The notes below the pieces were generated by a model, which had not been told where the DNA came from, did not search any database, and saw only the letters and a program-made list of their open reading frames with translations. From the IMG/VR virus record IMGVR_UViG_3300010885_012033, positions 1-24,488 of that record: a stretch of DNA of 24,488 nt, one strand, 5' to 3'. The DNA is from a virus. The position numbers and the translations under genes are program-made. Every line of letters begins with the position of its first letter. The stretch's first letter is position 1. Positions 1,007 to 18,096 of the stretch are shown piece after piece.

Positions 1007-1666
1007 ATGTTGTCGTATTTAGATCGCATTTTGTTTCCAGACCGCTGTGAGGTAATAGAAGTCATACCCTCACAGCGGTATGTCTATGTTATTTTTAAAA
1101 ATGGACATAGTAGTTTTAATAATTTTAAAATAATAAATCCTCGTCAAATTTTCATTAATCAACAGATTCAAAAACTAAACAATATTGACGTTATTATACG
1201 AAACCCAGAAGATAGATTACCTTCAGGAATTAATACATTTATACATCATACTCTTAGAGACAATCCTGACCTTGATCCGTTCACAGTAGAATGGTTTGCT
1301 TTAAATTATTTGTCTTTAAATCGTCATTACACTTCACAATTTTCGTGGTTGTTAAATTTGGCAAGATATTTAGATATCAACACAAAATTAAACTTTTTAC
1401 CAATGGATGCCATTAGTGAAATAACCGGACTTAATAAAAAACCAGTAGGAGTTTCTCCGGTATCTGCAGAATTAATAGAAAAAATTTCACTAATAAAAAA
1501 CAATGAAATGTATCACCGAATAGACACAGTTATATTTGATTGCATTGGACAGACTATGACATTTGCCCAATTATTGCAACATATTAAAACAACCGACCCG
1601 GCCGCATACGCATATGTAATCGGATATGCACAACAAATTTTAAATCCAACTTATGCATTGTCCTAG
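1007..1666 (+). CDS. unrecognised phage protein, possibly sulfotransferase-like
   Basis: A 219-aa protein starting 3 nt after the gp32 stop codon and overlapping the next gene by 14 nt, so it is probably cotranscribed with both. I do not recognise it firmly. The N-terminal beta strand ending in FKNGHSSF (30-37) resembles the phosphate-loop region of P-loop sulfotransferase-like proteins, in which a hydrophobic strand is followed by K-x-G-x-S-S. No second diagnostic motif (3'-phosphate-binding Ser/Arg) is clear, so this is only a suggestion. The rest is Ile/Asn/Leu-rich and helical, with no signal peptide or membrane segment. The reading frame is markedly more AT-rich than gp32 next to it, which suggests an accessory gene of different origin. 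Codons 12-25 contain a strong inverted repeat (1041-1079), listed separately. Confidence 0.55.
   Translation: MLSYLDRILFPDRCEVIEVIPSQRYVYVIFKNGHSSFNNFKIINPRQIFINQQIQKLNNIDVIIRNPEDRLPSGINTFIHHTLRDNPDLDPFTVEWFALNYLSLNRHYTSQFSWLLNLARYLDINTKLNFLPMDAISEITGLNKKPVGVSPVSAELIEKISLIKNNEMYHRIDTVIFDCIGQTMTFAQLLQHIKTTDPAAYAYVIGYAQQILNPTYALS
1041..1079 (+). repeat. perfect 12-bp inverted repeat just inside the gene after gp32
   Basis: The arms accgctgtgagg (1041-1052) and cctcacagcggt (1068-1079) are perfectly complementary, with a 15-nt loop. On the mRNA this is a strong GC-rich hairpin beginning 38 nt downstream of the gp32 stop. No T-tract follows, so it does not look like an intrinsic terminator. It lies within codons 12-25 of the following gene. 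It could stabilise the 3' end of gp32 mRNA or reduce translation of the next gene, but that is inference. Confidence 0.7.
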
Positions 1667-2528
1667 ACTAGATCATTTTGTACGTTTTAACCCTAACGGA
1701 ACTGTAAGTCGTTGTGGACATATGGTCAACGCACCACAATTCGATACATTGGCTGATATGGAATCAAGTATGTGGTTGGCAAAAACAAAAGAAAAAATGT
1801 CTCGTAACGAATGGCCTAGTGAATGCGTTCGTTGCCAAGAAACAGAACCCAACAGTATAAGAGTCTACGCTACAGAATTGGACAATAAAACTCAACAACA
1901 AAATTATCTACAAGTAGGTGGTGTATTAGATAACCTATGTAATGCGGCCTGTCAAACATGTAATGAAAATTTAAGCAGTAGGATAGGCAGTCTAACAGGT
2001 CCTGGGTTTCCTATTGTCAACAATCTTGAACAGTTTTGGCAACTACCACAAGATCGTATTGTTCATTTAGATATCAATGGCGGAGAACCTGGCTACAGTA
2101 AAAACTACAAGAAAATTTTAGCCAACCTACCACCAAATTTAAAAACCCTTAGGCTCAACACAAATTGTAGTACTGTGTTAACCGAGCTGGCAGAGATTGC
2201 TACACGTGGCATAGAAGTTACAGTTACAGTTAGTTGTGACGGCATCGGCCCAGTACATGATTTTGTACGTTGGCCAATTCCGTGGCAAGAGTTTTATCGT
2301 AATCTCATGTCATATAAAACTATGCCGGTTAAACTTAATTTATGGACCACAGTTAGTGTATTAAACGTAGATGATCTTTCAAATATTCAAAAGTTTGCTC
2401 AAGAGCACAGCATTGATCACAGTTATGCTTATTTAAAACAGCCGTATGAATTGAGTGTAGATAACACCGACCTGGTCGCTCGTCAAACATATATAAGCAA
2501 ACAGAAACAATTGAGGGGTATTGAGTGA
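1653..2528 (+). CDS. radical SAM protein with N-terminal twitch/SPASM-like module (paralogue 1)
   Basis: A 291-aa radical SAM enzyme. The 4Fe-4S motif CNAACQTC (C96, C100, C103; CX3CX2C) is followed by NGGEP (142-146), the SAM-binding GGEP motif. An N-terminal module carries C3-x12-G16-x4-C21 and CVRC (C58, C61). This matches the first part of the SPASM cysteine pattern (CX9-15GX4C, then CX2C) but lies before the core instead of after it, which fits the twitch-domain radical SAM group. Such enzymes cleave SAM to a 5'-deoxyadenosyl radical, and the N-terminal cysteines probably bind an auxiliary Fe-S cluster. The substrate is unknown. It is shorter than its two paralogues in the window (384 and 417 aa). 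It overlaps the previous gene by 14 nt and the SDR gene by 4 nt, suggesting translational coupling. Confidence 0.82.
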   Translation: MHCPRLDHFVRFNPNGTVSRCGHMVNAPQFDTLADMESSMWLAKTKEKMSRNEWPSECVRCQETEPNSIRVYATELDNKTQQQNYLQVGGVLDNLCNAACQTCNENLSSRIGSLTGPGFPIVNNLEQFWQLPQDRIVHLDINGGEPGYSKNYKKILANLPPNLKTLRLNTNCSTVLTELAEIATRGIEVTVTVSCDGIGPVHDFVRWPIPWQEFYRNLMSYKTMPVKLNLWTTVSVLNVDDLSNIQKFAQEHSIDHSYAYLKQPYELSVDNTDLVARQTYISKQKQLRGIE

Positions 2529-3070
2529 AAATAGCAATTACTGGACACACCGCTGGCATTGGCCAAGCCCTGGCCAATGAATACACACTTGACGGACATG
2601 AAATTATAGGACTTAGTCGCCGCAACGGCAATAACATACGCAACACGCCTAAAATTTGTGATCAAATTGAACCTTGTGATGTGTTTGTTAATAATGCTCA
2701 AGCCGGGTACGCACAAACTGAATTGTTATTTGAAATGGCTCAGCGGTGGCAAGGTACTAAAAAACACATTATTGTTGTTAGTACCATGATGACGCAAGAT
2801 CCTATTAGTGTGTTGCCAGGATTAGATATGCTATCTTATCATCAACAAAAAGTTACCTTAGAGGAAATGGTCAAACAACTACGCCATCAACGCCTTGGCA
2901 TATCTATTACTATTGTCAGGCCTGGATACATTGCCACACAACCAGGACAAACTGTACCACCTGCTGCAGATGTCAACAACTGGGCCAGAACGTTATTGGA
3001 TTTATTTGACATGGCTAAACATAATAATCTGTCAGTTCCAGACATATCCTTGGGGCCACAGAATTTATGA
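2525..3070 (+). CDS. short-chain dehydrogenase/reductase (SDR), short form
   Basis: A 181-aa NAD(P)-dependent oxidoreductase of the SDR family. It has the Rossmann glycine motif TGHTAGIG (6-13), NNAQAG (56-61, the NNAG element), S86 after a beta strand, the catalytic pair Y105-x3-K109 and RPGYI (132-136, the PG motif). It is about 70 residues shorter than a classical SDR (around 250 aa) and lacks most of the C-terminal substrate loop, yet the catalytic residues are intact. The start is a GTG at 2525 in a GTGA overlap with the upstream TGA, with gagggg about 8 nt before it. It overlaps the next gene by ATGA. Being sandwiched between two radical SAM genes suggests a common pathway, perhaps modification of a sugar or another small substrate; the substrate cannot be read from the sequence. 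Confidence 0.85.
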   Translation: MKIAITGHTAGIGQALANEYTLDGHEIIGLSRRNGNNIRNTPKICDQIEPCDVFVNNAQAGYAQTELLFEMAQRWQGTKKHIIVVSTMMTQDPISVLPGLDMLSYHQQKVTLEEMVKQLRHQRLGISITIVRPGYIATQPGQTVPPAADVNNWARTLLDLFDMAKHNNLSVPDISLGPQNL

Positions 3071-4221
3071 CGCCAAAAGATATCCTAACAAATCAACATT
3101 TTTGTCCTATGCCGTGGACAGGACTAATGTATAACTCAGATGGTAAAGTTAAAAATTGTATTCGCAGTGATGAAAAAACTGGCTTACTAGGCAATATTAA
3201 AGATATACCTATTGAAGAAATATTACTAGGTAATACAAACGTAACCAAACAAACAAATATAACCAATAACAAACCGGCTGCCGGATGTCATACCTGTTAC
3301 GATTTAGAACATGGTAAAAAAGGTCTCGATATTATCAGCGATAGAATTTTTTACATACGAGAATTTAAAAAAACGCCGCTAGATACATATCAAGTTAATA
3401 ACTTTGATCTTCAAACCATTGATGTGCGTTGGACTAATTTGTGTAATTTTGCCTGTGTATATTGCAGTCCAGAGTTTAGCAGTCGCTGGGCCAATGAATT
3501 AAATGTCCAAATTAAAACGCCTTCTGAGAATCAGTTGACCAACTTTAAAGAATACATTTATCGTCATGCTAAAAATCTCAAACATGTTTATCTAGCCGGC
3601 GGCGAACCGTTGTTGATGAAAGAAAATTTAGAGTTGCTCAAAGAATTAAACCCTGAGGTTAATCTCAGGATAAACACTAATCTTAGTAAGGTTGACACAG
3701 GGGTGTTTGATACTGTATGCGGTTTTAAAAATGTTCACTGGACTGTGAGTGTAGAAACTGTAGAAGAAGAATTTGAATATATTCGATTTGGTGGTCAATG
3801 GTCTGATTTTTTAGATAATTTAAACACAATCAGAAAATTAGACCACAAAATAAGTTTTAATATGTTATGGTTTTTATTAAATTATGATACGGTGTTTGGG
3901 TGTGTAGATTACCTAAAAAGTCTGGGATTCCATAACAACAGCTTTGTTATTGGAGCATTGCTAACTCCAGAATACCTAAACATTAGACATTTACCAGAAA
4001 ATGTGTTAAACTTATTAAAGACTAAGTTGGAATCTAAAATTAATGAGCGGCCTGGATATCTTCTCGAGGATAGTTATTGCAATATGCTACACTATATAGA
4101 ACAACCAATTGACCAAAATTTAGCAGGATCGTTTGAAAAGTTGACCGTAATGGATCAGCGGCGTGGAGTAGACAGCAGTAAGATTTTTACAGAATTATAC
4201 AAACTTAAAGAAGGAAAGTAA
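3067..4221 (+). CDS. radical SAM protein with N-terminal twitch/SPASM-like module (paralogue 2)
   Basis: A 384-aa radical SAM protein. The cluster motif is CNFACVYC (C126, C130, C133), followed by SSRW and then AGGEP (177-181). The N-terminal module has C13-x12-G26-x4-C31 and CHTC (C74, C77), in the same layout as the proteins at 1653-2528 and 5543-6796. Mid-protein strands such as RINTNL (201-206) and WTVSVE (225-230) fit the partial TIM barrel. It overlaps the SDR stop by ATGA and ends 2 nt before uvsX. The cysteine arrangement supports one catalytic and one auxiliary Fe-S cluster. No peptide precursor gene is recognisable nearby, so a RiPP role has no direct support; a sugar or small-molecule substrate is equally possible. 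Confidence 0.85.
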   Translation: MTPKDILTNQHFCPMPWTGLMYNSDGKVKNCIRSDEKTGLLGNIKDIPIEEILLGNTNVTKQTNITNNKPAAGCHTCYDLEHGKKGLDIISDRIFYIREFKKTPLDTYQVNNFDLQTIDVRWTNLCNFACVYCSPEFSSRWANELNVQIKTPSENQLTNFKEYIYRHAKNLKHVYLAGGEPLLMKENLELLKELNPEVNLRINTNLSKVDTGVFDTVCGFKNVHWTVSVETVEEEFEYIRFGGQWSDFLDNLNTIRKLDHKISFNMLWFLLNYDTVFGCVDYLKSLGFHNNSFVIGALLTPEYLNIRHLPENVLNLLKTKLESKINERPGYLLEDSYCNMLHYIEQPIDQNLAGSFEKLTVMDQRRGVDSSKIFTELYKLKEGK

Positions 4222-4223
4222 TC

Positions 4224-5279
4224 ATGGCAAAACCATTTGACGTATCAAAGTTCCGCAAGGATATCACTAAGAGCATTGACGGACTTAGTATTGGATTTAA
4301 CGATCCTACTGATTGGATCAGCACAGGCAACTTTGCACTAAACTATTTGATCAGCGGCGATTTTAACAAAGGCATTCCTTTAGGTAAAGTAACAGTGTTT
4401 GCCGGCGAATCTGGTGCGGGTAAAAGTTATTTCTGCTCAGGTAACATTATTAAAAACGCACAGGAGCAAGGTATTTTTGTCATCTTGATTGACAGTGAAA
4501 ATGCACTGGATGAGGATTGGCTTAAAGCGTTAGGTGTTGATACCAGCGATAGTAAATTGCTTAAATTGAGTATGGCCATGATTGATGATGTGGCCAAGAC
4601 AATTAGCACATTTATGAGTGACTACAAAGCACTTCCAGACGGCGAACGTCCTAAGGTTTTATTTGTTATTGACTCGTTGGGCATGTTGCTTACACCAACT
4701 GACGTCAATCAGTTTGATGCAGGTGAAATGAAAGGTGACTTGGGTCGTAAACCCAAAGCACTTACAGCATTGGTTCGTAACTGCGTAAACATGTTTGGTA
4801 GTTACAATGTGGGTCTAGTGTGTACAAACCATACCTACGCAAGTCAAGACATGTTTGATCCAGACGACAAGATCTCAGGTGGTCAGGGCTTTATCTATGC
4901 GTCAAGTATCGTGGTTGCCATGAAGAAAATGAAGCTGAAAGAAGATGAGGATGGCAACAAGATCACTGACGTTATGGGTATCCGTGCTGGCTGTAAGGTT
5001 ATGAAAACTCGTTATGCCAAACCGTTTGAAGGTGTGCAAGTTAAGATTCCGTATGAAACAGGTATGAATCCCTACTCAGGCATGGTAGACATGGCTGAGA
5101 AACGTGGCCTGCTCAAGAAAGAAGGCAACAGTCTAGCGTTTGTGACTAGTGATGGCGAAGTAATCAAACAGTTCCGTAAAAAGTGGGAAGCCAATGAAGG
5201 CGGGTGTTTAGACAAACTCATGACCGACTTTAACAATCAAAAAACGGTAAGTACTGAAGAAACAGCCACGGAGGAATAA
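4224..5279 (+). CDS. uvsX: UvsX, RecA-like recombinase
   Basis: A 351-aa RecA/RAD51-family strand-exchange ATPase, the T4 UvsX counterpart (T4 UvsX is 391 aa). The Walker A motif is GESGAGKS (61-68), E92 in DSENALD is in the position of the catalytic glutamate, and Walker B is LFVID (146-150) followed by SLG. The motif VGLVCTNH (196-203) resembles the RecA L2-flanking strand, and ISGGQGF (217-223) the adjoining loop. UvsX forms filaments on ssDNA, displaces gp32 with help from UvsY and drives recombination-dependent replication. The ATG is preceded by aaggaaag. An acidic C-terminus (TEETATEE) ends the protein. Its composition is closer to gp32 and uvsW than to the AT-richer radical SAM genes on either side. 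Confidence 0.93.
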   Translation: MAKPFDVSKFRKDITKSIDGLSIGFNDPTDWISTGNFALNYLISGDFNKGIPLGKVTVFAGESGAGKSYFCSGNIIKNAQEQGIFVILIDSENALDEDWLKALGVDTSDSKLLKLSMAMIDDVAKTISTFMSDYKALPDGERPKVLFVIDSLGMLLTPTDVNQFDAGEMKGDLGRKPKALTALVRNCVNMFGSYNVGLVCTNHTYASQDMFDPDDKISGGQGFIYASSIVVAMKKMKLKEDEDGNKITDVMGIRAGCKVMKTRYAKPFEGVQVKIPYETGMNPYSGMVDMAEKRGLLKKEGNSLAFVTSDGEVIKQFRKKWEANEGGCLDKLMTDFNNQKTVSTEETATEE

Positions 5280-5282
5280 TAG

Positions 5283-5543
5283 ATGTCAGTAGAATTAAGC
5301 AAAGAAATTTGGGACGAACTTAAACGTTATGTTAACCCGCAAGATCGCGATGAAGCCGCAGAAACACTAGTTTCAGTGTTAATTGATAACGATTGTGATG
5401 CTGCTGACATCAAAAGTGTGTTTAAAAACGACTCTGGAGTCAAGGCCGCTCTAGCAAGTTATCTTAAAGATCACGCCGATGACGAAGAAGATGAAGAAGA
5501 AGATGACAACTACGATGATTTTGAGGAAGACGACGACTATTAA
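5283..5543 (+). CDS. small acidic protein following UvsX
   Basis: An 86-aa hypothetical protein. Residues 1-65 look helical, while 66-86 are almost entirely Asp/Glu with a few Tyr/Asn, giving a strongly acidic tail that could mimic DNA or bind a basic protein surface. A strong Shine-Dalgarno (ggagg at 5270-5274) precedes the ATG, and the gene starts 3 nt after uvsX. Its stop overlaps the next ATG (TAATG). I recall similar small acidic proteins beside uvsX in other marine T4-like phages, but no function is known to me. By position it might modulate UvsX or gp32; that is inference. Confidence 0.75.
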   Translation: MSVELSKEIWDELKRYVNPQDRDEAAETLVSVLIDNDCDAADIKSVFKNDSGVKAALASYLKDHADDEEDEEEDDNYDDFEEDDDY

Positions 5544-6796
5544 TGTCTAATAAATTTTTTCCAATCAAAACTGAAACTGCTTGCAAGTTAAAATGGAATT
5601 GGAATACTATTCGACTCTACAACGGGCTTACTAGCTCATGTCATAGAGTCGATGGTGATGTAGTGTCGGCCGAAACATTTGATACTTTTCATAATACACC
5701 AAAAAAATTAGCAGATAGAACTCTTATGTTACAAGGGCAATGGCCAACTGGTGGCTGCGAGTATTGCAAAAATATTGAAACAGCCGGTGGATCTAGTGAT
5801 CGGCTGTTTCATCTTGCTATTCCAGATCAAGTTCCGCCTGAGCTGTTTGACAATCCTACTGCTGTAAATGTAACACCTACCATTGTTGAAGTATATCTTG
5901 ACAATGTGTGTAACATGAGTTGCATTTATTGTTGGGACGGATTTAGCAGCCGCATTCAACAGGAAAATATTCAATTTGGACGCTTTGAAAAACAAGGTGT
6001 GGTAATTGATAACCGAGCAGAAAAAGCTAAAGACTTTGATACATTGTCTGACAAATTTTGGTCATGGATGAGCACAAACTACAAGACCTTGGGTAGGTTT
6101 CATGTCTTGGGTGGAGAACCCTTTTATCAACCGCAATTTGACCGCTGTTTGGAACTGTTGGAAACGCATGAAAATCCAGAGTTGGAATTTAACGTTGTTA
6201 CCAATTTAAAAACTCCACACAATCGTTTGGTCAAGATAATTGACCGCATACATCAAATAGTTTTGCAAGGACGAATTAAACGATTTGATCTCACAGTCAG
6301 TATTGATTGTTTTGGTCCAGAACAAGAGTATGTGAGATTTGGCCTGGATCTTGACCAATGGCGAAGTAATTTTGAATATCTAGTTGAACAACCTTGGATA
6401 ACTTTAAATATCAATCAGACTTTGTCCGGTCTTACTATTAAAACAGTGCCAGACTTGTTACAATATATAAATTTGTTACGCACTGATAGAGAAATTGGAC
6501 ATTATTTTTCAACCACAGTGATGACTTATGATTTTTTACATCCAGAAATTTTTGGACCTGGATTTTTTGATCAAGACTTTGAAAAGATTTTATCTGTTAT
6601 GCCCAACGATACGTGGCAACAACAACAGGCTAAAAAATACATGCAAGGAATACAATTGCAAATAAATTCTGGCCAGCAAAATCAAGAAAAAATAAATCAA
6701 TTGGTGGTGTTTTTAGACGAAATAGATCGTAGACGTAATCTCGATTGGAAAGAAACATTTCCGTGGCTAGTAAAGGAATTAGAAAATGTGGTATAG
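5543..6796 (+). CDS. radical SAM protein with N-terminal twitch/SPASM-like module (paralogue 3)
   Basis: A 417-aa radical SAM enzyme, the longest of the three in the window. The cluster motif CNMSCIYC (C123, C127, C130) is followed by FSSR, and LGGEP (189-193) is the SAM-binding element. The N-terminal module has C14-x13-G28-x4-C33 and CEYC (C72, C75). The insertion between the cysteine motif and GGEP is longer than in the other two, and an extra C-terminal helical region (about 350-417) is present. It lies between the acidic uvsX neighbour (TAATG overlap) and uvsY (11-nt overlap), so it is embedded in the recombination operon. Whether it acts on the same substrate as the other two is unknown. 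The low similarity between paralogues outside the motifs suggests different specificities. Confidence 0.85.
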   Translation: MSNKFFPIKTETACKLKWNWNTIRLYNGLTSSCHRVDGDVVSAETFDTFHNTPKKLADRTLMLQGQWPTGGCEYCKNIETAGGSSDRLFHLAIPDQVPPELFDNPTAVNVTPTIVEVYLDNVCNMSCIYCWDGFSSRIQQENIQFGRFEKQGVVIDNRAEKAKDFDTLSDKFWSWMSTNYKTLGRFHVLGGEPFYQPQFDRCLELLETHENPELEFNVVTNLKTPHNRLVKIIDRIHQIVLQGRIKRFDLTVSIDCFGPEQEYVRFGLDLDQWRSNFEYLVEQPWITLNINQTLSGLTIKTVPDLLQYINLLRTDREIGHYFSTTVMTYDFLHPEIFGPGFFDQDFEKILSVMPNDTWQQQQAKKYMQGIQLQINSGQQNQEKINQLVVFLDEIDRRRNLDWKETFPWLVKELENVV

Positions 6797-7999: not shown

Positions 8000-8538
8000 C
8001 ATTAATCACGCCCGAATACCAACAAAATTTAAAGCAGCTACAAAAAGAAAACAAGTTCAAGGGTCTACTTGTCAAGTACGATCCTGTGCGAGATTTTGTT
8101 AAAAAATATCAACCAGAGAGTATTCTGGATTACGGTTGTGCCAAGGGTCGATTAGTAGAACAACTGCGAGAAGATTTTCCAGAGATTCAAGTAATCGATG
8201 GGTATGATCCTGGCGTTCCTGAATTTGAACGCATTCCTTTGGATCAGTATGATTGTTTGATCAGCAACGATGTAATAGAACATTTTGAGCCAGAATTCTT
8301 AGATCAAAGTCTACGACAGATGAATGCTTTGTTTTCTCGTAGTGCTTGGTTGATCATTGCTTGCTATCCGGCTAAAAAAAGTCTGCCTGATGGCCGTAAC
8401 GCACACTTGATTATTGAACCACCGGCATGGTGGCGTGAACGTGTGGCTGAATGTTTCTCTGACTGTTGTGTTGTCTATGACCAAGTGGTAGAATTTGCAC
8501 CAGGCAAGCCTGAGCTTAGACTCATACTAGAACGATGA
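7996..8538 (+). CDS. class I SAM-dependent methyltransferase (small)
   Basis: A 180-aa methyltransferase with motif I ILDYGCAKGR (43-52), the strand-2 end DGYDP (68-72), and NDVIEHF (91-97), the motif typical of small-molecule methyltransferases of the UbiE/Coq class. I place the start at the ATG at 7996, which overlaps the preceding TGA as ATGA, the prevailing junction here. An in-frame TTG at 7981 would give a longer protein but would overlap more and has no better ribosome-binding site. It overlaps the next gene by ATGA at 8535. It resembles the protein at 9316-9840 in length and the xLDYGCxKG motif, so the two are probable paralogues. Confidence 0.8.
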   Translation: MTLITPEYQQNLKQLQKENKFKGLLVKYDPVRDFVKKYQPESILDYGCAKGRLVEQLREDFPEIQVIDGYDPGVPEFERIPLDQYDCLISNDVIEHFEPEFLDQSLRQMNALFSRSAWLIIACYPAKKSLPDGRNAHLIIEPPAWWRERVAECFSDCCVVYDQVVEFAPGKPELRLILER

Positions 8539-9338: not shown

Positions 9339-9840
9339 AAAAAGTAAATTAGTACATAGTACTTTACCCAAATGGCAAGGCGAAGGCACCATGCAGTACG
9401 CTGACTTGCTCAAAGAAAATATCAACAAGTATCGGTGTCAAACCATGTTGGATTACGGGTGTGGCAAAGGTATTCAATACACACAATTTAAACTTCATGA
9501 ACAACTTGGGCTAGAACTAGCAAACATTTATCAATTTGATCCGGCCTATGAGCCGATGGCAACTGAACCAGACTGGCATCAAACATTTGATTGCTCAATA
9601 TGCTTGGATGTACTGCATTTTGTTGATGAGGATGAACTGGCAGTAATAAAACAACGACTAGAACAAGTAACTACAAAATTCTGTATTGTTGGCGTACAGT
9701 TAGCCCAGCCCAAACCCAAAAGTCTGTTGCTTAAACCTTACGCACTGTTAAAATCTGCTGAGTGGTGGCAAGATAAATTTAGCTCTTGGAACAGTAGCAG
9801 CCGGCTAATTTTAGAACTCCGGGATAATATACGCACATAA
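9316..9840 (+). CDS. class I SAM-dependent methyltransferase (small)
   Basis: A 174-aa methyltransferase-like protein with motif I MLDYGCGKG (44-52), strand-2 end QFDP, and CLDVLHFVDEDEL, a motif IV region like the DVLEH of small-molecule methyltransferases. It lacks an obvious substrate domain and ends at a domain-sized length, like its neighbour at 7996-8538. The start ATG at 9316 lies inside the preceding gene (23-nt overlap). Eight nt separate its stop from the nucleotidyltransferase-cupin gene. Probable role: methylation of a small molecule or sugar; substrate unknown. Confidence 0.75.
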   Translation: MNGSTQLEKSKLVHSTLPKWQGEGTMQYADLLKENINKYRCQTMLDYGCGKGIQYTQFKLHEQLGLELANIYQFDPAYEPMATEPDWHQTFDCSICLDVLHFVDEDELAVIKQRLEQVTTKFCIVGVQLAQPKPKSLLLKPYALLKSAEWWQDKFSSWNSSSRLILELRDNIRT

Positions 9841-9848
9841 ATATCTGC

Positions 9849-10595
9849 ATGAAAAAGATTGTTTTAGCTACCGGTGGATTTGACCCTGTACACTCTGGAC
9901 ACATTGCCTATTTAAAAGCAGCTAAAAATCTAGGCGACATGCTGATTGTAGGAATCAACAGTGACGAATGGCTAGAACGCAAAAAAGGTCGTGCATTCAT
10001 GCCCTGGAACGAAAGATTGTGCATCATAAACAATCTTGCCTGCGTAGATGAAGTTTACACATTTGACGACGAAGATGGATCGGCCAGGCATTTTATTCAG
10101 CAGGCACGGGCTCACTATCCAGATGCCGAACTAATATTTGCCAATGGCGGTGACAGAACCGCTGACAATATTCCAGAGATGGATGTGGCAGATACCAATA
10201 CAACATTTCTTTTTGGTGTAGGCGGAACCAATAAAGCAAACAGTAGCAGTTGGATCCTACAAGAATGGAAAGCACCCAAGACAGAACGTCCTTGGGGCTA
10301 CTATCGTGTGTTACACGAAGTAACAGGAACAAAAGTCAAAGAACTTACAGTCAATCCTGGACAAACACTCAGTATGCAACGACACAGTAGTCGTGCAGAA
10401 TATTGGCAAGTGTCAGAAGGCCGGTGTGTGGTAGAAGGTGAAGGCCAAAGACAAACATCGTTAGACACTCACGACAGTTATCATATTTCCACAAACGAAT
10501 GGCATAGATTGTACAATCCATTTGATCAACCATGCAGAATTGTGGAAATACAGTATGGTCCTAACTGTGTAGAAGAGGACATAGAACGTCAATGA
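9849..10595 (+). CDS. nucleotidyltransferase-cupin fusion (RfaE2/TagD-like plus mannose-6-P isomerase type II cupin)
   Basis: A 248-aa bifunctional-looking protein. Residues 1-140 are a cytidylyltransferase-type fold: TGGFDPVHSGH (8-18) with the HxGH nucleotide-binding motif, then LKAAKNLGD, IVGINSDEW (33-41), NGGDR (99-103) and the NSSSWIL segment (131-137), in the position of the serine/threonine-rich loop after the GG of RfaE2-like enzymes. Residues 146-245 match the cupin domain of type II mannose-6-phosphate isomerases: ERPWGYY (146-152), PGQTLSMQRHSSRAEYW (170-186) with likely metal ligands H179 and E184, and H219. The GDP-mannose pyrophosphorylase domain usual in ManC is absent. It should activate a sugar phosphate or polyol phosphate and perhaps isomerise it. 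It overlaps the next glycosyltransferase by ATGA. Confidence 0.85.
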   Translation: MKKIVLATGGFDPVHSGHIAYLKAAKNLGDMLIVGINSDEWLERKKGRAFMPWNERLCIINNLACVDEVYTFDDEDGSARHFIQQARAHYPDAELIFANGGDRTADNIPEMDVADTNTTFLFGVGGTNKANSSSWILQEWKAPKTERPWGYYRVLHEVTGTKVKELTVNPGQTLSMQRHSSRAEYWQVSEGRCVVEGEGQRQTSLDTHDSYHISTNEWHRLYNPFDQPCRIVEIQYGPNCVEEDIERQ

Positions 10596-11275
10596 CCCCA
10601 ATACCAATTTTTATCGGTTACGACCCTAGAGAAGCCATTGCTTTTCATACCTGTGTGAATAGTATCATTAGACATGCCAGTCAACCTGTGGCCATCATGC
10701 CCATTGCACTGAACTTGTTTCAAGACTACAAAGAAACCCACACCGATGGATCCAATCATTTTATCTATACTAGATTCCTGGTACCACACTTGATGAGCTA
10801 CACAGGTTGGGCAATATTCATCGATGGCGATATGATTGTTCGAGATGACGTAGTAAAGTTGTGGGAACTACGCGAAGGCGACAAAGATGTCATGGTAGTC
10901 AAACACGATTACAAAACTCGAATGACTGAAAAGTATCTTGGTGCTAAAAATGAAGATTATCCAAGAAAGAATTGGTCAAGTGTGATACTGTGGAATTGCG
11001 GTAATCACCCTAATAGACGACTAACTCCTGAATTTGTGCAAAATTCAACCGGAGCATATTTACACAGGTTTAGTTGGTTATTAGACGACCGCATTGGCGA
11101 ACTGCCCAAAGAATGGAATTGGCTTCCAGACGAATATGGCCCTAATCCAGACGCCAAGCTATTACATTACACATTAGGAACACCTTGCTTTCATGAGTTT
11201 GCTGATACTCCGCAGGGCAACGAGTGGCATATGGAACGTATGTTTACTGAATATTGCCAACAACGTTTGGACTAA
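10592..11275 (+). CDS. glycosyltransferase, GT-A/GT8-like
   Basis: A 227-aa putative glycosyltransferase. It begins with the IPIFIGYDPREAIAFHTC pattern (4-21) common to phage and bacterial GT8-like proteins, and carries a DxD-type metal and sugar-nucleotide motif in IFIDGDMIV (75-83). A later conserved-looking LLHYTLGTPC segment (194-203) parallels the H-x-x-G of GT8-type enzymes. No membrane segment is visible, so it should be cytoplasmic. It lies directly after the nucleotidyltransferase-cupin gene (ATGA overlap), which could supply its activated donor. Acceptor and sugar are unknown. Confidence 0.82.
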   Translation: MTPIPIFIGYDPREAIAFHTCVNSIIRHASQPVAIMPIALNLFQDYKETHTDGSNHFIYTRFLVPHLMSYTGWAIFIDGDMIVRDDVVKLWELREGDKDVMVVKHDYKTRMTEKYLGAKNEDYPRKNWSSVILWNCGNHPNRRLTPEFVQNSTGAYLHRFSWLLDDRIGELPKEWNWLPDEYGPNPDAKLLHYTLGTPCFHEFADTPQGNEWHMERMFTEYCQQRLD

Positions 11276-11277
11276 CA

Positions 11278-12111
11278 ATGATGCCAGACATTCCAAAAAG
11301 AGATTTTGAACCTGGTCAGCCTCTTTGCATCAACAGAAAAATACACGATAGTGAAATCAAAGCTCGCCAGGCTGCATTTGTTGATAGATTTGCCAAAGGA
11401 TGCAACGGTGCGTTGGTTAGCAGTCAAGAAGCCGCACTGACTCCTATAGAACATCCGTACGTAATTCGCGGTATGAAATTTACTGCGGCAGTTAATCTTT
11501 GCTGGCAAACAGGCCGAACGTTTTATTACATAGACAATGGGTATATAGGCAATGTTGGTCGCAAAATACATTTTAGAATAATCAAAGATCATGTGCATGA
11601 TATCCGACCCATTATTGAACGTCCTAGAGATAGATTGGATCAATTGTATTTTACCATAAAAAAATTTACACCAGGCAGAAAAATATTAGTAGCACCGCCA
11701 AGTGAAAAAAGTTTTAGTCTTTGGGACATTGACCAACAACAGTGGATTGACGAAACTATTGCTGAGATTAAGAAACACACAGACCGTCCTATAGAAATTA
11801 GACTTAAACGTACCAGAGATGATCGCATGCGAGAAAATACCATGGAAGAAGCTCTAGCTGATGATGTACATTGTCTAGTAACTTATAACAGTGTTGCAGC
11901 CTGCGAAGCTGTTATGCTAGGCAAGCCTGCTATTACTTTGGGTCCTAATGCTGCTGGAGTTCTTTGTTCACAATCACTGAGCGAAATTGAAATACCCAAA
12001 GTTCCTACTGAAGATGAACGCGAAGCTTGGTTGCGACATCTGAGTTATAGTCAGTTTACTTTTACTGAAATGAGTGACGGTACTGCTTGGCGTATTTTAA
12101 ATGAACGGTAA
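11278..12111 (+). CDS. capsule-synthesis/GT-B-like protein, family member 2
   Basis: A 277-aa member of the five-protein family. Central YYIDNGYIG (83-91), then RKIHFRIIKDHVHDIRP (95-111), aligns by eye with the minus-strand protein at 12989-14062. The C-terminal core is TYNSVAACEAVMLGKPAIT (202-220), E-REAW (247-251), LSYSQFTFTEM (255-265) and GTAWRIL. I place the start at the tandem ATG-ATG at 11278, 2 nt after the upstream stop; an in-frame TTG at 11254 would add eight residues but overlaps the previous gene. The gene converges on the minus-strand gene at 12097-12996 and overlaps it by 15 nt tail to tail. A GT-B-like glycosyltransferase role is inferred from the motif pattern, not proven. 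Confidence 0.65.
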   Translation: MMPDIPKRDFEPGQPLCINRKIHDSEIKARQAAFVDRFAKGCNGALVSSQEAALTPIEHPYVIRGMKFTAAVNLCWQTGRTFYYIDNGYIGNVGRKIHFRIIKDHVHDIRPIIERPRDRLDQLYFTIKKFTPGRKILVAPPSEKSFSLWDIDQQQWIDETIAEIKKHTDRPIEIRLKRTRDDRMRENTMEEALADDVHCLVTYNSVAACEAVMLGKPAITLGPNAAGVLCSQSLSEIEIPKVPTEDEREAWLRHLSYSQFTFTEMSDGTAWRILNER

Positions 12112-12996
12112 AAAATGTTGATATATTGCACCACTGCGACTTTCCGCATCAGTCCAGTGTGCAGAACTAAGATCATTTAACCACTGAGTTCGATCTGGCA
12201 TAACAGGCGATTCAACATGTGCTAGATCCTTATTGGCCACTGCCCATGCTACGCAATCATCATCATCGGCAAACACAGGTATGCCGGCCAACACAGCTGC
12301 CACACTACTTGAACTGTTACAGAATACTGCGGCCCAGGCGTTGGCCAGGTCTTGTTGTAATGTACTACCAACTGCACTTTCTCTTACTCCGGGCAAACTA
12401 GTTAATTCAGACAAATTTATTTTATGTTTAGGATGCGGTCGAATCACAATAGGACGAGCAGTTAATGATCGCAAACGATGTACAGTCTGCCTAGTCCATT
12501 CTATCATATCAGTGCCCTTCATACTCCATCCACCATCACGCTGTAAGCATACCAATACATGATCGCCGTGTGTTCGCCAGGGCATTAAATTCAAATTGAG
12601 TTGGTGTTGAATTTGTTGCCATTTATCATTGTTGCTGTTGGCATTGGCATAATTGTTGGTGTTATAAAATACCCCGTCGAGACTATAACGTAGGAAATAG
12701 CTGTCAGTGTCTACAAATTTAAAACAACTGGCGTCAATGGGCATGACATGATGTCCGGTACGGCGTTGATGATTAATTACATTATTTCTAAGTTGAATAT
12801 GCGGCCCGCGAATTGTGGTTCCAACCCAACCTAGTATTACAGCCAAACAACAGTCTACCACTTGAGGGTCTGACTGAATTAACACTCGGGCACCCTGTGC
12901 TTGTGCACCTTCAGCAAAAGCTCGTAAAACCTCAACCTTGCGATTGCGATCAGCTATCCTGGGCAAACTGGAAAGATAAACTACTACATCATACAT
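12097..12996 (-). CDS. capsule-synthesis/GT-B-like protein, family member 3
   Basis: A 299-aa minus-strand protein and the last gene of the inverted block. It contains ARPIVIRPHPK (180-190), like the RPHP element of capsule polysaccharide synthesis proteins, then FCNSSSSVAAVLAGIPVF (225-242), DRTQW (268-272) and a weakened terminal signature, LSSAHWTDAES (276-286). The GIPVFADDDD strand-loop is where GT-B enzymes bind the nucleotide sugar. The N-terminal half (VVVYLSSLPR and VLRAFAEGAQAQGARV) looks like a Rossmann-type fold. It overlaps the upstream minus-strand gene by 8 nt and the convergent + gene by 15 nt. No terminator is visible between the convergent genes. Confidence 0.65.
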   Translation of the reverse strand: MYDVVVYLSSLPRIADRNRKVEVLRAFAEGAQAQGARVLIQSDPQVVDCCLAVILGWVGTTIRGPHIQLRNNVINHQRRTGHHVMPIDASCFKFVDTDSYFLRYSLDGVFYNTNNYANANSNNDKWQQIQHQLNLNLMPWRTHGDHVLVCLQRDGGWSMKGTDMIEWTRQTVHRLRSLTARPIVIRPHPKHKINLSELTSLPGVRESAVGSTLQQDLANAWAAVFCNSSSSVAAVLAGIPVFADDDDCVAWAVANKDLAHVESPVMPDRTQWLNDLSSAHWTDAESRSGAIYQHFLPFI

Positions 12997-14062
12997 GATA
13001 TTTTTTTATTAACCTTAATGCGGTACCGTTGTACATTTCTTTTTCTGTAAATTGACTATAACTTAACGCACATAACCAATCTCCTATGGGGCCACGATAC
13101 AAATTGTCAATGTCCGATAGTCGGGTACGAGCCACCGGTGTAGAAATATGTTGACCCAGTGTAATAATAGGCGTGCCAGCCCACACAGCTTCAATAGCCG
13201 CTGCACTAGCATCAGTGATTACACAGTAGTAGTTGGAGTTTTGTAATATATCATACAGGTTATCACGTGTTTTGCGATTGAGTTCTTTAGGTCTAAACGT
13301 TACGGCACGATCGGTGTGTTTTGCTAGTTCTGTTTTTACTTGTTCACGCCAGGCAGACAATGTCGTCCCAAACATTTGATAGTGATATTCGCTGTTTTCA
13401 ACAACCAATATTGAGTGTCCCTCATCTTGCCAAGGTGCAGGCATACTAGGTAACAAGTGTAAACGGTCCGCAGGAAAGTATCCCATACGCGGTGCATGAT
13501 GTATATGATTTTGTACCAAACGATGCCACAGTTTTTTACCTGTTACAAAATTAGTATAACCAGTATCAATAAACCAAAAGGGCAAACAATGACTTAAACG
13601 ATCTTTTAAAACTAATTCATTGTTGATGACATTTCTTAACACCACAGTTTGATCGTCTGGTATTGGATCATCAGGCAGTGCCCATACTGGATTATCAGTT
13701 AATTGTTGCCCTACGGTTTTGACAAAGTTTTCAGTACTGCTATTGATATAACTATTCAACAAATAGTCACGGTCAACATTGAGATTTTTAAAATTTTCTC
13801 CCAGCCAACGAATCAGCGGCTGATATTTCTTTTTGTATTCAACAACCACAGAATCTTTGTATTCTTGTACATCTTGTTTTATGTAACCGTTGAGCGTAGC
13901 AAAATCAATTTCGATCATCCCAGACTTTTCCATACGTTTACTAATTTTTTCTAAATACGCGGTAGTATTATCCCAATCTGGTTTGATTTTTTTTAAATGT
14001 TGTGCCAGTACTCTTTTGGCCAGTCCAATTACAACTTCTTCGCGGTTCAACAATAGATGCAC
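12989..14062 (-). CDS. capsule-synthesis/GT-B-like protein, family member 4, with helical N-terminal extension
   Basis: A 357-aa member, the longest of the five. The first ~120 residues (many Lys, Glu and Tyr, helical) have no counterpart in the others. The shared part starts at FWFIDTGYTN (162-171), with KKLWHRLVQNHIHHAPR (176-192), then AVTFRPKE (253-260), TDASAAAIEAVWAGTPIITLG (283-303), GDWL (327-330) and LSYSQFTEKEMYNGTALRLI (333-352). The match in this last stretch to the + strand protein at 11278-12111 is close. One nt separates its start from the FkbM gene stop, so it belongs to the same minus-strand unit. The extension may bind a partner or membrane surface; this is speculation. Confidence 0.68.
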   Translation of the reverse strand: MHLLLNREEVVIGLAKRVLAQHLKKIKPDWDNTTAYLEKISKRMEKSGMIEIDFATLNGYIKQDVQEYKDSVVVEYKKKYQPLIRWLGENFKNLNVDRDYLLNSYINSSTENFVKTVGQQLTDNPVWALPDDPIPDDQTVVLRNVINNELVLKDRLSHCLPFWFIDTGYTNFVTGKKLWHRLVQNHIHHAPRMGYFPADRLHLLPSMPAPWQDEGHSILVVENSEYHYQMFGTTLSAWREQVKTELAKHTDRAVTFRPKELNRKTRDNLYDILQNSNYYCVITDASAAAIEAVWAGTPIITLGQHISTPVARTRLSDIDNLYRGPIGDWLCALSYSQFTEKEMYNGTALRLIKKYHV

Positions 14063-14063
14063 G

Positions 14064-14708
14064 TTACCAACCCATGATCAAATCGTGTTTTTTCTGTTGT
14101 AGTAATTTGGCACCCCAACTTTTAAGTAAATCAACAGCTTCGCCGTTGTCAGTTATGCCGGTATCTTTGTGAAACTTCTGTTCAACTACTATGATAGGTT
14201 TGCAGGATTTAATATAATTTTCACCACCTACTAGAATATTATACTCGTAGCCTTCACAGTCTATTTTGACATAGTCAGTTGGTGGCAATTCCATGCTGTC
14301 TAGGGTTTTCATTTGTATTTTACCTTGACCAAAACTGGCAGGATCCACGTGACTATGCCCAGTGTTGTCAGCAGTGATGATCATATCAATCATGCTGTTT
14401 GTTGAACCCAGGGCACAATCATAAATTTTTAAATTTGTAGCTGGAACATTTTTCATCAAGCAGGCTCTAAAATCAGCCACTGGTTCAATGGCATGTACCT
14501 GTTGAAAAAATTGGCAAAGATCTCGCGTCCATAAGCCCACATTGGCACCTATGTCTACAGCCACATCGTGTTTTTTACAATGAGTTATACTGGCTCTGCG
14601 TACAGGTTCTTGATAGACTGGTTGTCCACCCTTTTCAATATTTCTAGTCAACATTTTAGCAAAATGTGTGTCTTGATCTGGAAACCACCAGCGGTGTGAT
14701 TGATACAT
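14064..14708 (-). CDS. FkbM-family methyltransferase
   Basis: A 214-aa FkbM-type SAM-dependent methyltransferase. Motif I is VDIGANVGLW (51-60), followed by HAIEP (72-76), the YDCALGS strand (96-102), VKIDCEGYEYNIL (147-159) and IVVEQ (173-177), all hallmarks of the family. FkbM proteins usually O-methylate polyketides, sugars or glycan chains and are common in polysaccharide loci. The length is close to the bare domain. The start codon overlaps the stop of the upstream minus-strand glycosyltransferase by one nt (TAATG). It probably methylates a product of the surrounding glycosyltransferases, by context. Confidence 0.9.
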   Translation of the reverse strand: MYQSHRWWFPDQDTHFAKMLTRNIEKGGQPVYQEPVRRASITHCKKHDVAVDIGANVGLWTRDLCQFFQQVHAIEPVADFRACLMKNVPATNLKIYDCALGSTNSMIDMIITADNTGHSHVDPASFGQGKIQMKTLDSMELPPTDYVKIDCEGYEYNILVGGENYIKSCKPIIVVEQKFHKDTGITDNGEAVDLLKSWGAKLLQQKKHDLIMGW

Positions 14709-15535
14709 TATTTTCTTCCTCGTTGTCGAAGTACTTGTTGCCAGTAAGGATGATCCTGATGCATGATCACTTCCTTGGGACGGCTCATACCTTGTAATTT
14801 ACGCTCGCCTTTGACATGATCCATGTATAGCCCTAGTTCGCTGTTGATAAATGGATGACCGGCAAGCCCTTTGTCCTCCCAGCTGGGATTCAAGTTAAAA
14901 AACCTATTGTTGGCTTGATATTGTTTACGTACTACATCCCATATGTAACTATCATGCCATTCGCGTTCTTTAAAAATATCATCGGTGTTGTACATACCCA
15001 CAAATTTTCTAATAAAGTTTCTAGTTTCTGGGTAAGACAAATTATAGCCTACCCACCCACACTCCGAATGATATTTGTCACCACGTCCTAGATAGCTGAT
15101 CATGGCATTGTCAGGGCATACCTTAGACAGCCATTCTAAGGGTACAGGGCTGTGCGTGTGACTGTCAGCATCTAACCAAATCATGTATCCATCACTTAAC
15201 TCTTTTTCGCAAAGAGCAACGCTAAACACTTTGTAGGAAAATCTAACGGCATTCCAACGAAAGGATTTTTTAGGATTCCATACTTCGGGTGGACCATCTA
15301 ATCCATGTGCCTTGGGATTATTTCTATGGCGTTCAATAAACACACGTAGATTTGAACTGACCGCTAATAGATCATGTACCTTAGTATTTGGTCTACGGGT
15401 AATGGGTTTGCAATTTTCAGCACAAACAATCAAATCAACTTCTGCTGGCCAGTTAGCTTCAAAAGTATCAATCATTCGCTGGCCGTATTGTTTTAAACCC
15501 TCGGCATTAAAAGAGGTAATTACAGTATATTTCAT
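14708..15535 (-). CDS. glycosyltransferase, GT-A-like with DxD
   Basis: A 275-aa putative glycosyltransferase and first gene of the minus-strand block. The N-terminus YTVITSFNAEGLKQYG (3-18) suits a GT-A nucleotide-binding strand, and MIWLDADSHTHSP (118-130) contains the DxD metal motif with the H-x-P segment that often follows it. Late-domain SECGWVGYNL (156-165) and HDSYIWD resemble acceptor-site segments of phage and lipopolysaccharide glycosyltransferases. No transmembrane segment is seen. Its ATG is only 12 nt from the divergent GTG start of the + gene at 15548, so any promoter must sit inside one of the coding regions. Confidence 0.82.
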   Translation of the reverse strand: MKYTVITSFNAEGLKQYGQRMIDTFEANWPAEVDLIVCAENCKPITRRPNTKVHDLLAVSSNLRVFIERHRNNPKAHGLDGPPEVWNPKKSFRWNAVRFSYKVFSVALCEKELSDGYMIWLDADSHTHSPVPLEWLSKVCPDNAMISYLGRGDKYHSECGWVGYNLSYPETRNFIRKFVGMYNTDDIFKEREWHDSYIWDVVRKQYQANNRFFNLNPSWEDKGLAGHPFINSELGLYMDHVKGERKLQGMSRPKEVIMHQDHPYWQQVLRQRGRK

Positions 15536-15547
15536 GTTGGATATTTA

Positions 15548-16390
15548 GTGATTAAATCAGTGGCCTATTTTCCTTTGCAGTGTGCTCAAAACAGTGCTCC
15601 TGTTCTAGCAGCCATGTTAACGGCATTAAGACACGCCGGTGTTCAATGTTTAGAAAACAGCATGGATGCAGATGCTGTTATCATTTGGTCAGCATTATGG
15701 GCAGGCCGCATGGCACCAAACAAACAAGTTTATGAGCATTACCGGTCTCAAGACAAGTCAGTGATTGTCGTGGATGTTGGTGCATTGTATCGTGGCGAAA
15801 CTTGGAAGATTGCCATCAACCATATCAACCGTTTGGGCTACTATGGACACACTGAAAATCTAGACTGGGATCGTCCCATGAAGTTGGGCATAAGTCTTGC
15901 CATCAATCTCAGTCGAAATCCTGCCGTCCTTATTGCCGCCCAACACAGACACAGTTTACAGTTGGCCAATCAACATCACGAAACTTGGATCATGGAACAA
16001 ATTGAAGCGATTCGTCAAGTAAGTGATCGTCCAATTGTGATCAGACCACACCCAAGAAGCCCGTTGCAAATTGGCACTTTGACTAAAAATATTACAATTC
16101 TAAAACCACAAAAAATAGCCAATACCTATGATAGCTTTGACATGCATTTTGATTATCATGCTGTGGTAAACTATTGCTCAGGCCCTGGAATACAAGCAGC
16201 TATATCAGGCACAAGGCCCATTGTAGGTGCTCACAGTTTGGCCGCACCAGTATCGGTTGCTATAGCCGACCTAGATCAGCAGTACACCACAGATAGAGAC
16301 CAATGGCTGGTAGAAATTTGCCACACTGAATACACAGTAAAAGAAATAGAACAAGGCCTATGGCTTCAACGACTAAGCTCCCGCCTTTGA
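15548..16390 (+). CDS. capsule-synthesis/GT-B-like protein, family member 5
   Basis: A 280-aa paralogue. VIVVDVGALYRG (72-83) and WKIAINHINR (86-95) correspond to the Y-I-D-x-G-Y-x-G and R-x-I-x-x-N-H elements of the others. DRPIVIRPHPRS (160-171) matches the RPHP element of the minus-strand paralogue at 12097-12996. The C-terminal core is NYCSGPGIQAAISGTRPIV (208-226), DRDQW (249-253) and ICHTEYTVKEIEQG (257-270). The start is a GTG at 15548 (gtg att aaa), 12 nt from the divergent glycosyltransferase; no clear Shine-Dalgarno precedes it. The next gene starts inside it (31-nt overlap). A glycosyltransferase role is inferred from the GT-B-like pattern. Confidence 0.65.
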   Translation: MIKSVAYFPLQCAQNSAPVLAAMLTALRHAGVQCLENSMDADAVIIWSALWAGRMAPNKQVYEHYRSQDKSVIVVDVGALYRGETWKIAINHINRLGYYGHTENLDWDRPMKLGISLAINLSRNPAVLIAAQHRHSLQLANQHHETWIMEQIEAIRQVSDRPIVIRPHPRSPLQIGTLTKNITILKPQKIANTYDSFDMHFDYHAVVNYCSGPGIQAAISGTRPIVGAHSLAAPVSVAIADLDQQYTTDRDQWLVEICHTEYTVKEIEQGLWLQRLSSRL

Positions 16391-17100
16391 CTGGCCCTAT
16401 TGACTGTGCCTGCGTAATTCACGGCACAGGATACGACTGGATTTATGTTGAACGCCTGTACAACATGTTAAACAGGCACCTCACTCCGGGTATTAGATTG
16501 CATGTTTATACTGAAACCAATCGTCCAGTACCAGCCCCAATGATCAAGCACGAGTTAACTGAGTGGTTCATTGGCGGCCCTAAAAAATCTTGGTGGTATA
16601 AGATGCAACTGTTTAACCCAGAGCATCATGCTGGCCCACTGCTGTATTTTGATTTAGATGTGGTTATTGTTAATAATATAGATTGGATTTGGCAACAATC
16701 ATTACGTCATTTTTGGACTGTGCGAGATTTTAAGTATTTGTGGCGGCCAACACACTATGGTATCAATTCTAGCATCATGTGGTGGGACACACAAAAATTT
16801 CAACACGTCTGGAAAGATTTTAACAGCCAAGACTTGAACAAAATTGTAGGAGTATATCGTGGCGATCAAGACTATATTACAGAAAAAATAGCAGATCGAG
16901 AACGTCAATTTTTGGACGCTACGCAAATAAAAAGCTGGCGTTGGCAGTGCCTAGATGGTGGGTATGATTTCAAGCGTAAACTTTACTTTAAACCCGGTGC
17001 CGGCACAATACTAGCAAATACCACGGATGTGCTGATTTTTCATGGCCAGCCAAAACCAGGAGAATTACAAGATCCTGCAATAATACACCACTGGAGATGA
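16360..17100 (+). CDS. glycosyltransferase, GT-A-like with DxD
   Basis: A 246-aa putative glycosyltransferase. The DxD motif is in LLYFDLDVVIVNNID (94-108), preceded by KSWWYKMQLF (76-85), which typically aligns the substrate in this phage/bacterial group. Near the end VLIFHGQPKP has the H-G-x-P-K-P segment that I recall from many phage-borne glycosyltransferases. Cytoplasmic, no membrane segment. The ATG at 16360 overlaps the upstream gene by 31 nt; no other in-frame ATG precedes the conserved ACVIHG strand, so this start is likely. It is the last gene of the island, ending just before a late-promoter-like motif. Confidence 0.83.
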   Translation: MASTTKLPPLTGPIDCACVIHGTGYDWIYVERLYNMLNRHLTPGIRLHVYTETNRPVPAPMIKHELTEWFIGGPKKSWWYKMQLFNPEHHAGPLLYFDLDVVIVNNIDWIWQQSLRHFWTVRDFKYLWRPTHYGINSSIMWWDTQKFQHVWKDFNSQDLNKIVGVYRGDQDYITEKIADRERQFLDATQIKSWRWQCLDGGYDFKRKLYFKPGAGTILANTTDVLIFHGQPKPGELQDPAIIHHWR

Positions 17101-17106
17101 TAAATA
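17099..17106 (+). promoter_or_regulatory. T4 late-promoter-like box
   Basis: gATAAATA differs at one position from the T4 late promoter box TATAAATA. It overlaps the stop codon of the preceding gene and lies 23 nt before the next ATG, in front of a gene with its own terminator, so it is well placed. T4 late promoters need only this box, recognised by the gp55-type sigma factor. A Shine-Dalgarno (aggag, 17115-17119) follows. Confidence 0.45.
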
Positions 17107-17129: not shown

Positions 17130-17792
17130 ATGGCAAATAGAACAATTCAATTTTGGGGACAAGGGTATGCTCCAACAGGCACAGACCCAATTACTGTTTC
17201 TGCAACACTAAACGGAAATGTAGTTTACACAGGGTCAATCCCAACATCATATACCAGTGAAATTAATCATGCAACAGATGCTCAGGTGGTATTATTTACT
17301 TGTGAACTGCCGGTGGATTTTGCAGGTACTGTGCCAATGTCGATCAGTCTTGACAGTCCAGTAGGTGTTACTGCATTTTTTGAACAGATACAGTCAAATT
17401 ACATGACAATACCGAATACAGTGTTTACAGCAGAACAAAGAGCCACATTAACTAACCCAGCAACCACCTTAGCTGATAGAATTACAATCTGGACTGCATG
17501 TGCAGTTCCGTCGTTAAGTGCTGCTGAAATTACCATTTTAGAAAGTGGTAACAAGGTAGAAATTGCAGCAATACTTAACTCTCATAATTTACAAACATAT
17601 GTAAGTTCCGGAGCAAACACATTTGTAGATGTCAACGGTGGGCAAGAGACAAGAAGTAATGTTGTTATCAACGGTACCGCTCAAACTCGTCAGAGTGAAC
17701 CAACTGGTGTCTGGGGCTGGATAGTAGAATTTCCAGCAGAAGGATCTGGTTTGTTTGAAAGCGATGTTACTGTGATTGCCGGTCAAGAATAA
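17130..17792 (+). CDS. beta-rich protein, possible virion or carbohydrate-binding component
   Basis: A 220-aa protein rich in Thr, Val, Ser, Asn and Gly, with many short predicted beta strands and only one cysteine-containing enzyme-like stretch. The N-terminal ~90 residues (IQFWGQGYAPTGT, 6-18; NGNVVYTGSIP, 28-38; ending in QSNYM) resemble a small beta-sandwich domain I recall from marine T4-like phage virion-associated proteins and calcium-dependent carbohydrate-binding modules. I cannot assign it firmly. No signal peptide or membrane segment. It has a good Shine-Dalgarno, a late-promoter-like box upstream and a strong terminator downstream, so it looks like an independently transcribed, possibly late, gene next to the glycan island. 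Confidence 0.65.
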   Translation: MANRTIQFWGQGYAPTGTDPITVSATLNGNVVYTGSIPTSYTSEINHATDAQVVLFTCELPVDFAGTVPMSISLDSPVGVTAFFEQIQSNYMTIPNTVFTAEQRATLTNPATTLADRITIWTACAVPSLSAAEITILESGNKVEIAAILNSHNLQTYVSSGANTFVDVNGGQETRSNVVINGTAQTRQSEPTGVWGWIVEFPAEGSGLFESDVTVIAGQE

Positions 17793-17814: not shown

Positions 17815-17843
17815 AAAAACCCGTCTAAATGGCGGGTTTTTTT
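17815..17843 (+). terminator. intrinsic terminator after the beta-rich protein
   Basis: The arms aaaaacccg (17815-17823) and cgggttttt (17833-17841) pair across a 9-nt loop and run into a seven-T tract (17837-17843). It closes the gene at 17130-17792. The next promoter -35 element starts 5 nt later. Confidence 0.88.
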
Positions 17844-17847
17844 ATGG

Positions 17848-17876
17848 TTGACCATTAATACCCTTTTTGCTATAAT
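17848..17876 (+). promoter_or_regulatory. consensus sigma70 promoter P1
   Basis: TTGACC (17848-17853), a 17-bp spacer, and a perfect TATAAT (17871-17876). It drives the 41-residue peptide gene and perhaps the ATPase gene. Its shape, including AATACCC within the spacer, repeats at 18038-18066. A host-sigma70-type consensus suggests early expression. Confidence 0.88.
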
Positions 17877-17907
17877 AGTAGTATAACAATTAATAAAGGA
17901 GTTTTAA

Positions 17908-18033
17908 ATGGAATCAAACACAATCATCGTTTTAATAGCACTGGCATATGGCGCATTTTTGGGCTACTGTTTTGGCCGTTATCAAGGCTACACCAAAGGT
18001 GCTGATATGGCCGTTAAAATCTACCGCAAATAA
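17908..18033 (+). CDS. 41-residue single-span membrane peptide
   Basis: A short ORF of 41 codons, below usual annotation cut-offs. It has a strong Shine-Dalgarno (aaaggag, 17896-17902) before the ATG and a consensus promoter 32 nt upstream. The product starts MESNTIIV; residues 6-23 form one hydrophobic segment (IIVLIALAYGAFLGYCFG), followed by a positively charged tail (R24, K30, K37, R40, K41). By the positive-inside rule the C-terminus should be cytoplasmic. The promoter, ribosome-binding site and codon-like composition argue that it is translated. Function unknown; early phage membrane peptides often act on the host envelope or on lysis or superinfection control, but nothing here proves that. 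Confidence 0.75.
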   Translation: MESNTIIVLIALAYGAFLGYCFGRYQGYTKGADMAVKIYRK

Positions 18034-18037
18034 GCGG

Positions 18038-18066
18038 TTGACCAAAAATACCCAATATAGTATAAT
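18038..18066 (+). promoter_or_regulatory. consensus sigma70 promoter P2
   Basis: TTGACC (18038-18043), a 17-bp spacer, and TATAAT (18061-18066), followed by an A/T-rich leader with aaaaggag (18083-18090) before the TTG start at 18097. It is nearly the same design as P1 and begins 4 nt after the stop of the 41-residue gene. Confidence 0.88.
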
Positions 18067-18096
18067 AGTTTTATAGTTAATAAAAAGGAGCTAACC

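Follow-up and report, generated by a model that had tools for sequence, protein, structure and literature searches.

A predicted late promoter touching a start codon in the gap between two divergent genes of a T4-like phage glycan-modifying cassette

The DNA analysed here, called the window throughout, comprises the 24,488 bases of an IMG/VR virus record that carries the T4-type genes gp32, UvsX, UvsY and UvsW. Its main genes all lie on the + strand, with the exception of Q, R, S and T, which form a block on the - strand (12097-15535). RNA families and tRNAs were not found in the window. Three mutually related radical SAM proteins are encoded among the recombination genes at 1653-6796. The genes and signals of the region are the following.

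9836..9843, + strand: candidate late-promoter box CATAAATA at the head of CTPt-GT8-P, separated by 5 nt from the start codon of CTPt
9849..10595, + strand: CTPt, cytidylyltransferase-like with a cupin/mannose-6-P isomerase C-terminal domain (Pfam PF01467, 1.9e-14; PF01050, 1.2e-22)
10592..11275, + strand: GT8, GT8-family glycosyltransferase (PF01501, 1.5e-8)
11254..12111, + strand: P, glycosyltransferase-like paralogue of Q, R and U (ORF and mutual comparison)
12097..12996, - strand: Q, 299 aa, KpsC/WbbB-type Kdo-transferase-like GT-B fold (AlphaFold model)
12989..14062, - strand: R, 357 aa, GTG start, paralogue of P (34% identity) and of Q (sequence comparison)
14064..14708, - strand: S, FkbM methyltransferase, 214 aa (PF05050, 4.5e-17)
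14708..15535, - strand: T, GT-A glycosyltransferase, 275 aa, first gene of the minus block (AlphaFold model, Foldseek)
15542..15549, - strand: candidate T4-type late-promoter box ACTAAATA, proposed driver of T (motif and conservation)
15548..16390, + strand: U, paralogue of P, Q and R, GTG start, divergent from T (sequence comparison)
16360..17100, + strand: V, glycosyltransferase, overlapping U by 31 nt (phrog_1962)
17101..17106, + strand: candidate late-promoter core TAAATA, followed by a leader and an AGGAG Shine-Dalgarno sequence, upstream of W (motif)
17130-17792, + strand: W, with the preceding late-promoter core upstream
17815..17841, + strand: predicted intrinsic terminator at the end of the + unit
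17848 and 18038: predicted sigma70-type promoters after this terminator

The minus-strand genes are tightly packed. By ORF analysis, Q and R overlap by 8 nt, R and S are 1 nt apart, and S and T overlap by 1 nt. P (+) and Q (-) overlap tail to tail by 15 nt, and T (-) and U (+) diverge with 12 nt between their start codons. The initial annotation had given the same coordinates for the four-gene block, the convergent overlap and the divergent gap, and ORF analysis bears them out. T, Q, U, R and S served as queries in scans that yielded 291 loci; together with the window, these form 144 sequence clusters. Where T and U are neighbours (101 pairs), they diverge in 95, with a gap of 9-22 nt in 78 of these, and the window order -Q-R-S-T recurs in more than 12 other contigs from different metagenomes. 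An assembly accident as the source of the layout is thereby ruled out.

The region between uvsY and uvsW is a glycan-modifying cassette. P, Q, R and U are mutually related, and the gene at 8535 is related to P. A PDB sequence search with Q and T gave no meaningful match, so that fold models were needed for these two proteins. The Q model (mean pLDDT 91) has 8fux as its best Foldseek match (E 1.2e-8), and the T model (mean pLDDT 89) has GT-A matches at about 1e-7; residues D122 and D124 of T, which form a DxD motif, are invariant. The cassette may serve to change the host envelope, as has been proposed for pelagimyophage islands (PMC7029224).

According to the initial annotation, no promoter could fit between genes packed in this way. 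T4 late promoters do not need a -35 element, so that a box of this type, 8 bp long, fits into a gap of 12 nt. T4 late transcription starts roughly one helical turn downstream of its 8-bp box (PMC2988020). The T/U gap holds a candidate for such a promoter: the TAAATA core of ACTAAATA lies at 15542-15547 (-), 6 nt ahead of the T ATG, and the box shares only 2 nt with the GTG start codon of U, which removes the objection of space. Because this GTG takes the first two box positions, the window box matches six of the eight T4 consensus positions.

The core is widely conserved. TAAATA stands 4-7 nt before the T start codon in 62 of 71 T relatives, most often at a spacing of 5 nt (30 relatives) or 6 nt (26 relatives), and a perfect TATAAATA precedes T in 13 relatives, including some of the more distant ones. 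The nine relatives without the core are all below about 56% identity, and several of them have long gaps. Aligned T/U junctions have GGATATTTA or variants of it in common, which on the minus strand reads as TAAATA 5-6 nt before T. Within T and within U, codon constraint is strongest in the window at the 5' end; Q, R, V, GT8, CTPt and UvsW, scored as six controls, have no such 5' peak. Constraint at the 5' end is, however, also seen in S, which does not lie at a divergent junction, and partly in X, so this signal is unspecific. From the presence, position and conservation of the box we infer that it acts as a promoter. Since it lies so close to the ATG, the T transcript would start at, or a few nt from, this codon and would be a leaderless mRNA.

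The spacing of TAAATA was then scored across two large relatives, G001 (344 kb; L293-L310) and G003 (317 kb; L311-L326), with genes taken as simple longest-ORF calls. The distance from TAAATA to ATG is bimodal in both: 29 and 24 sites, respectively, lie at 4-7 nt (the near class), 2 and 2 at 8-16 nt, and 29 and 32 at 17-28 nt (the far class). Control hexamers are without bimodal spacing. TAAATT occurs at 4-7 nt at a single site per genome, which rejects the explanation that TAAATA sites before ATG are simply the TAA stops of preceding genes. Far-class sites are followed by a Shine-Dalgarno-like sequence ahead of the ATG. By PHROG function (G001), portal, baseplate wedge, head closure, tail tube, head decoration, tail fibre and endolysin families are among the genes that follow sites of the two classes. 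Genes of the near class stand first in a same-strand run more often than expected (p 1e-5; for minus runs, p 0.002). The near class is absent from the T4 late region (0/72 TAAATA sites; Fisher p 9e-5 against G001 and G003 together) and from PA5oct (0/94). In Pelagibacter phage Mosig, two regions were scored: the first has the near class at 2 of 93 sites, the second at 0 of 43. One of these two sites heads the inverted block of Mosig, and the other a nearby minus-strand gene.

A homologue of gp55 (phrog_234) was found in nine of ten large relatives, and phrog_12791 was matched in 8/8; the 24-kb window fragment itself is without a gp55 gene. The frames of the gp55-like late sigma factors (loci L331-L338) are about 300 aa long, compared with 185 aa for T4 gp55, and phrog_12791 is matched over most of their length. 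The sites scored here thus appear to have the traits of T4-type late promoters, namely a TATAAATA-like box, virion and lysis genes behind it, and an encoded gp55 homologue. If transcription starts about 6 nt past the box, mRNAs of the near class would be leaderless, a reading suggested by the TAAATA-N4-7-ATG spacing with its dip at 8-16 nt. No report of leaderless T4-type late transcripts was found in the open-licence papers searched. G001 and G003 are also enriched in TATAAT placed exactly 6 nt ahead of an ATG (8 and 7 sites), hinting at leaderless transcripts from sigma70-type promoters as well.

In the cassette region, the near class precedes T in 58/62 relatives, CTPt in 49/64, GT8 in 9/57 and U in 1/97. 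No near-class site was found ahead of P, Q, R, S, V, X, UvsW, UvsX, UvsY, gp32 or any of the other genes scored. The near-class boxes before T and CTPt suggest a pair of facing late operons, CTPt-GT8-P on the + strand and T-S-R-Q on the - strand. They meet tail to tail at P/Q in the window and at Q/S in other lineages. A terminator at the P/Q convergence was considered and rejected, as no stem-loop is present and the fold z-scores are -0.56 and 0.08. Further downstream, two 51-nt promoter copies that are 73% alike (TTGACC-17-TATAAT) occupy 17846-18086, between the terminator at 17815 and X. The facing operons, with one apparent promoter type, would carry the glycan-modifying cassette inserted between uvsY and uvsW. 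As both appear to use the same type of promoter, Q-R could move from the + to the - operon with only a small change in timing expected.

Q-R has indeed changed strand between lineages. Q-R is found either as -Q-R-S-T, the state of the window, or as +R+Q-S-T, the state of other lineages. The initial annotation had likened the block to an inversion or a phase-variable arrangement and proposed a comparison with related phages for the opposite orientation. Part of the block, Q-R, does lie on the opposite strand in other lineages and was inverted in the course of evolution; among relatives with at least 70% Q identity, however, all 178 pairs have the same orientation. The Q tree (92 rows) requires a minimum of 6 changes of the orientation label, compared with 21 when the labels are shuffled. 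All 16 rows of the window clade are in the window state, and a second clade in this state (L047, L054) lies close to L036, L039 and L041, which are in the other. Between L041 and L047, the flanks share 76% DNA identity, and Q-R aligns inverted at 64%, so that exchange of a cassette and a clean inversion are equally likely. At 70-79% T identity, 66 pairs differ in Q orientation, which implies that the histories of T and Q-R are partly separate. In three contigs (L088, L089 and L093), the whole island from P to U is turned round relative to UvsX-UvsY. The strand change of Q-R would have come about by an old inversion or by cassette exchange. The existence of both orientations could also be expected of a segment that flips within populations, and this is the one observation in favour of phase variation. 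Against it stand the 178 concordant pairs, and near-identical contigs (L002, L082 and L083) hold the window orientation over the parts they cover. At the block ends, exact inverted matches reach 8 nt at most, which equals the shuffle median of 8, so that no inverted repeat stands out from chance, and Pfam and PHROG scans of the window proteins found no recombinase or invertase family. With the data at hand, phase-variable inversion is rejected as exceedingly improbable; on the sequences compared, the orientation is now fixed within each lineage.

The remaining alternatives concern U. Read on the + strand, the gap core is TATTTA, and it could be a signal for the translation or transcription of U, with TAAATA before T arising by chance. 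TATTTA does abut the GTG of U directly in many relatives. Across the 71 T relatives, however, the core keeps a near-constant distance to T (5-6 nt in 56 of the 62 with the core), whereas its distance to U varies. Moreover, TATTTA is not enriched right before start codons and was rejected as a signal of general use there, unlike TAAATA at 4-7 nt from an ATG, which is a genome-wide feature. A U signal with a chance match before T is quite improbable. How U itself is expressed is a separate matter. A late promoter of either class before U is absent in 94 of 97 relatives. A conserved sigma70 promoter inside T was rejected: the position-averaged score over 44 relatives reaches its top z of 3.5 at -2, a position unable to drive U. 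Either U has a promoter of an unrecognised type, or it is reached by + strand readthrough of the minus block, as in Staphylococcus phages (PMC11087260). In the latter case, U-V, without a promoter of its own, would be transcribed from the + operon antisense through Q-R-S-T as a noncontiguous operon, and the two strands would regulate each other by polymerase collision or decay of double-stranded RNA. The missing late and sigma70 sites, the P/Q convergence without a terminator and the precedent in Staphylococcus phages all speak for such an operon, in which the nested minus-strand genes would start from the conserved late box before T as their predicted promoter. Two observations point the other way. 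Codons 1-8 of T, just upstream of U, are under strong constraint and may mark an unrecognised U promoter; and in 20 of the 23 cases in which U has no T upstream, U is closely preceded by the palindrome TTAAATATTTAA (or TTAAATATATTTAA), which appears to sit between two divergent start codons and could serve both strands. We consider a noncontiguous operon unlikely on balance. The fuller proposal, in which gp55-type promoters touching the start codon yield a class of leaderless late mRNAs and U-V is expressed only by antisense + readthrough, as a noncontiguous, antisense-coupled late operon, is likewise unlikely.

In the reading preferred here, a large T4-like phage transcribes T-S-R-Q as a late operon from a candidate gp55-type late promoter in the T/U gap. 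We regard it as likely that the minus block is such an operon, that it faces CTPt-GT8-P, and that Q-R switched sides in the past and is now fixed in orientation. The new part is probably a leaderless late promoter overlapping a start codon and not an invertible switch. This corrects the natural but wrong inference that leads from tight packing to the lack of a promoter and from there to a switch, and it illustrates how the divergent genes of a compact phage may be set start to start around a promoter that has bases in common with one of the start codons. Should the spacing mean what it seems to, a lineage of large T4-like phages of water would differ from T4 in translating many late proteins, virion components among them, from leaderless mRNAs, which would raise questions about host ribosomes and the translation of late genes.

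The putative promoters resemble T4 late promoters and their gp55 system (PMC2988020) in having an 8-bp TATA-like box, free of a -35 element, with virion genes behind it, and large relatives encode a gp55 homologue. They differ in that TAAATA at 4-7 nt before ATG, never seen in the T4 late region, makes up one of two main classes here. The noncontiguous operons of Staphylococcus phages (PMC11087260) likewise have antisense genes with their own promoter, here a predicted one, nested among genes of the other strand. The Staphylococcus operon is a lysogeny/lysis switch established by direct RNA sequencing, whereas both facing operons here look late. The cassette also resembles the host-recognition island of pelagimyophages (PMC7029224) and Pelagibacter phage Mosig, a hypervariable cassette with GT8, other glycosyltransferase and radical SAM genes. 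The pelagimyophage island is bounded by the VrlC and gp14 genes, whereas the present cassette is flanked by uvsY and uvsW and occurs in phages with longest records of about 300-344 kb. Mosig, the closest isolate identified, also has an inverted block, in its case a metabolic one (L339:20991-31306; MT647606 60990-71305), which is headed by TATAAATA-TTTAT-ATG and has a convergent overlap of 14 nt.
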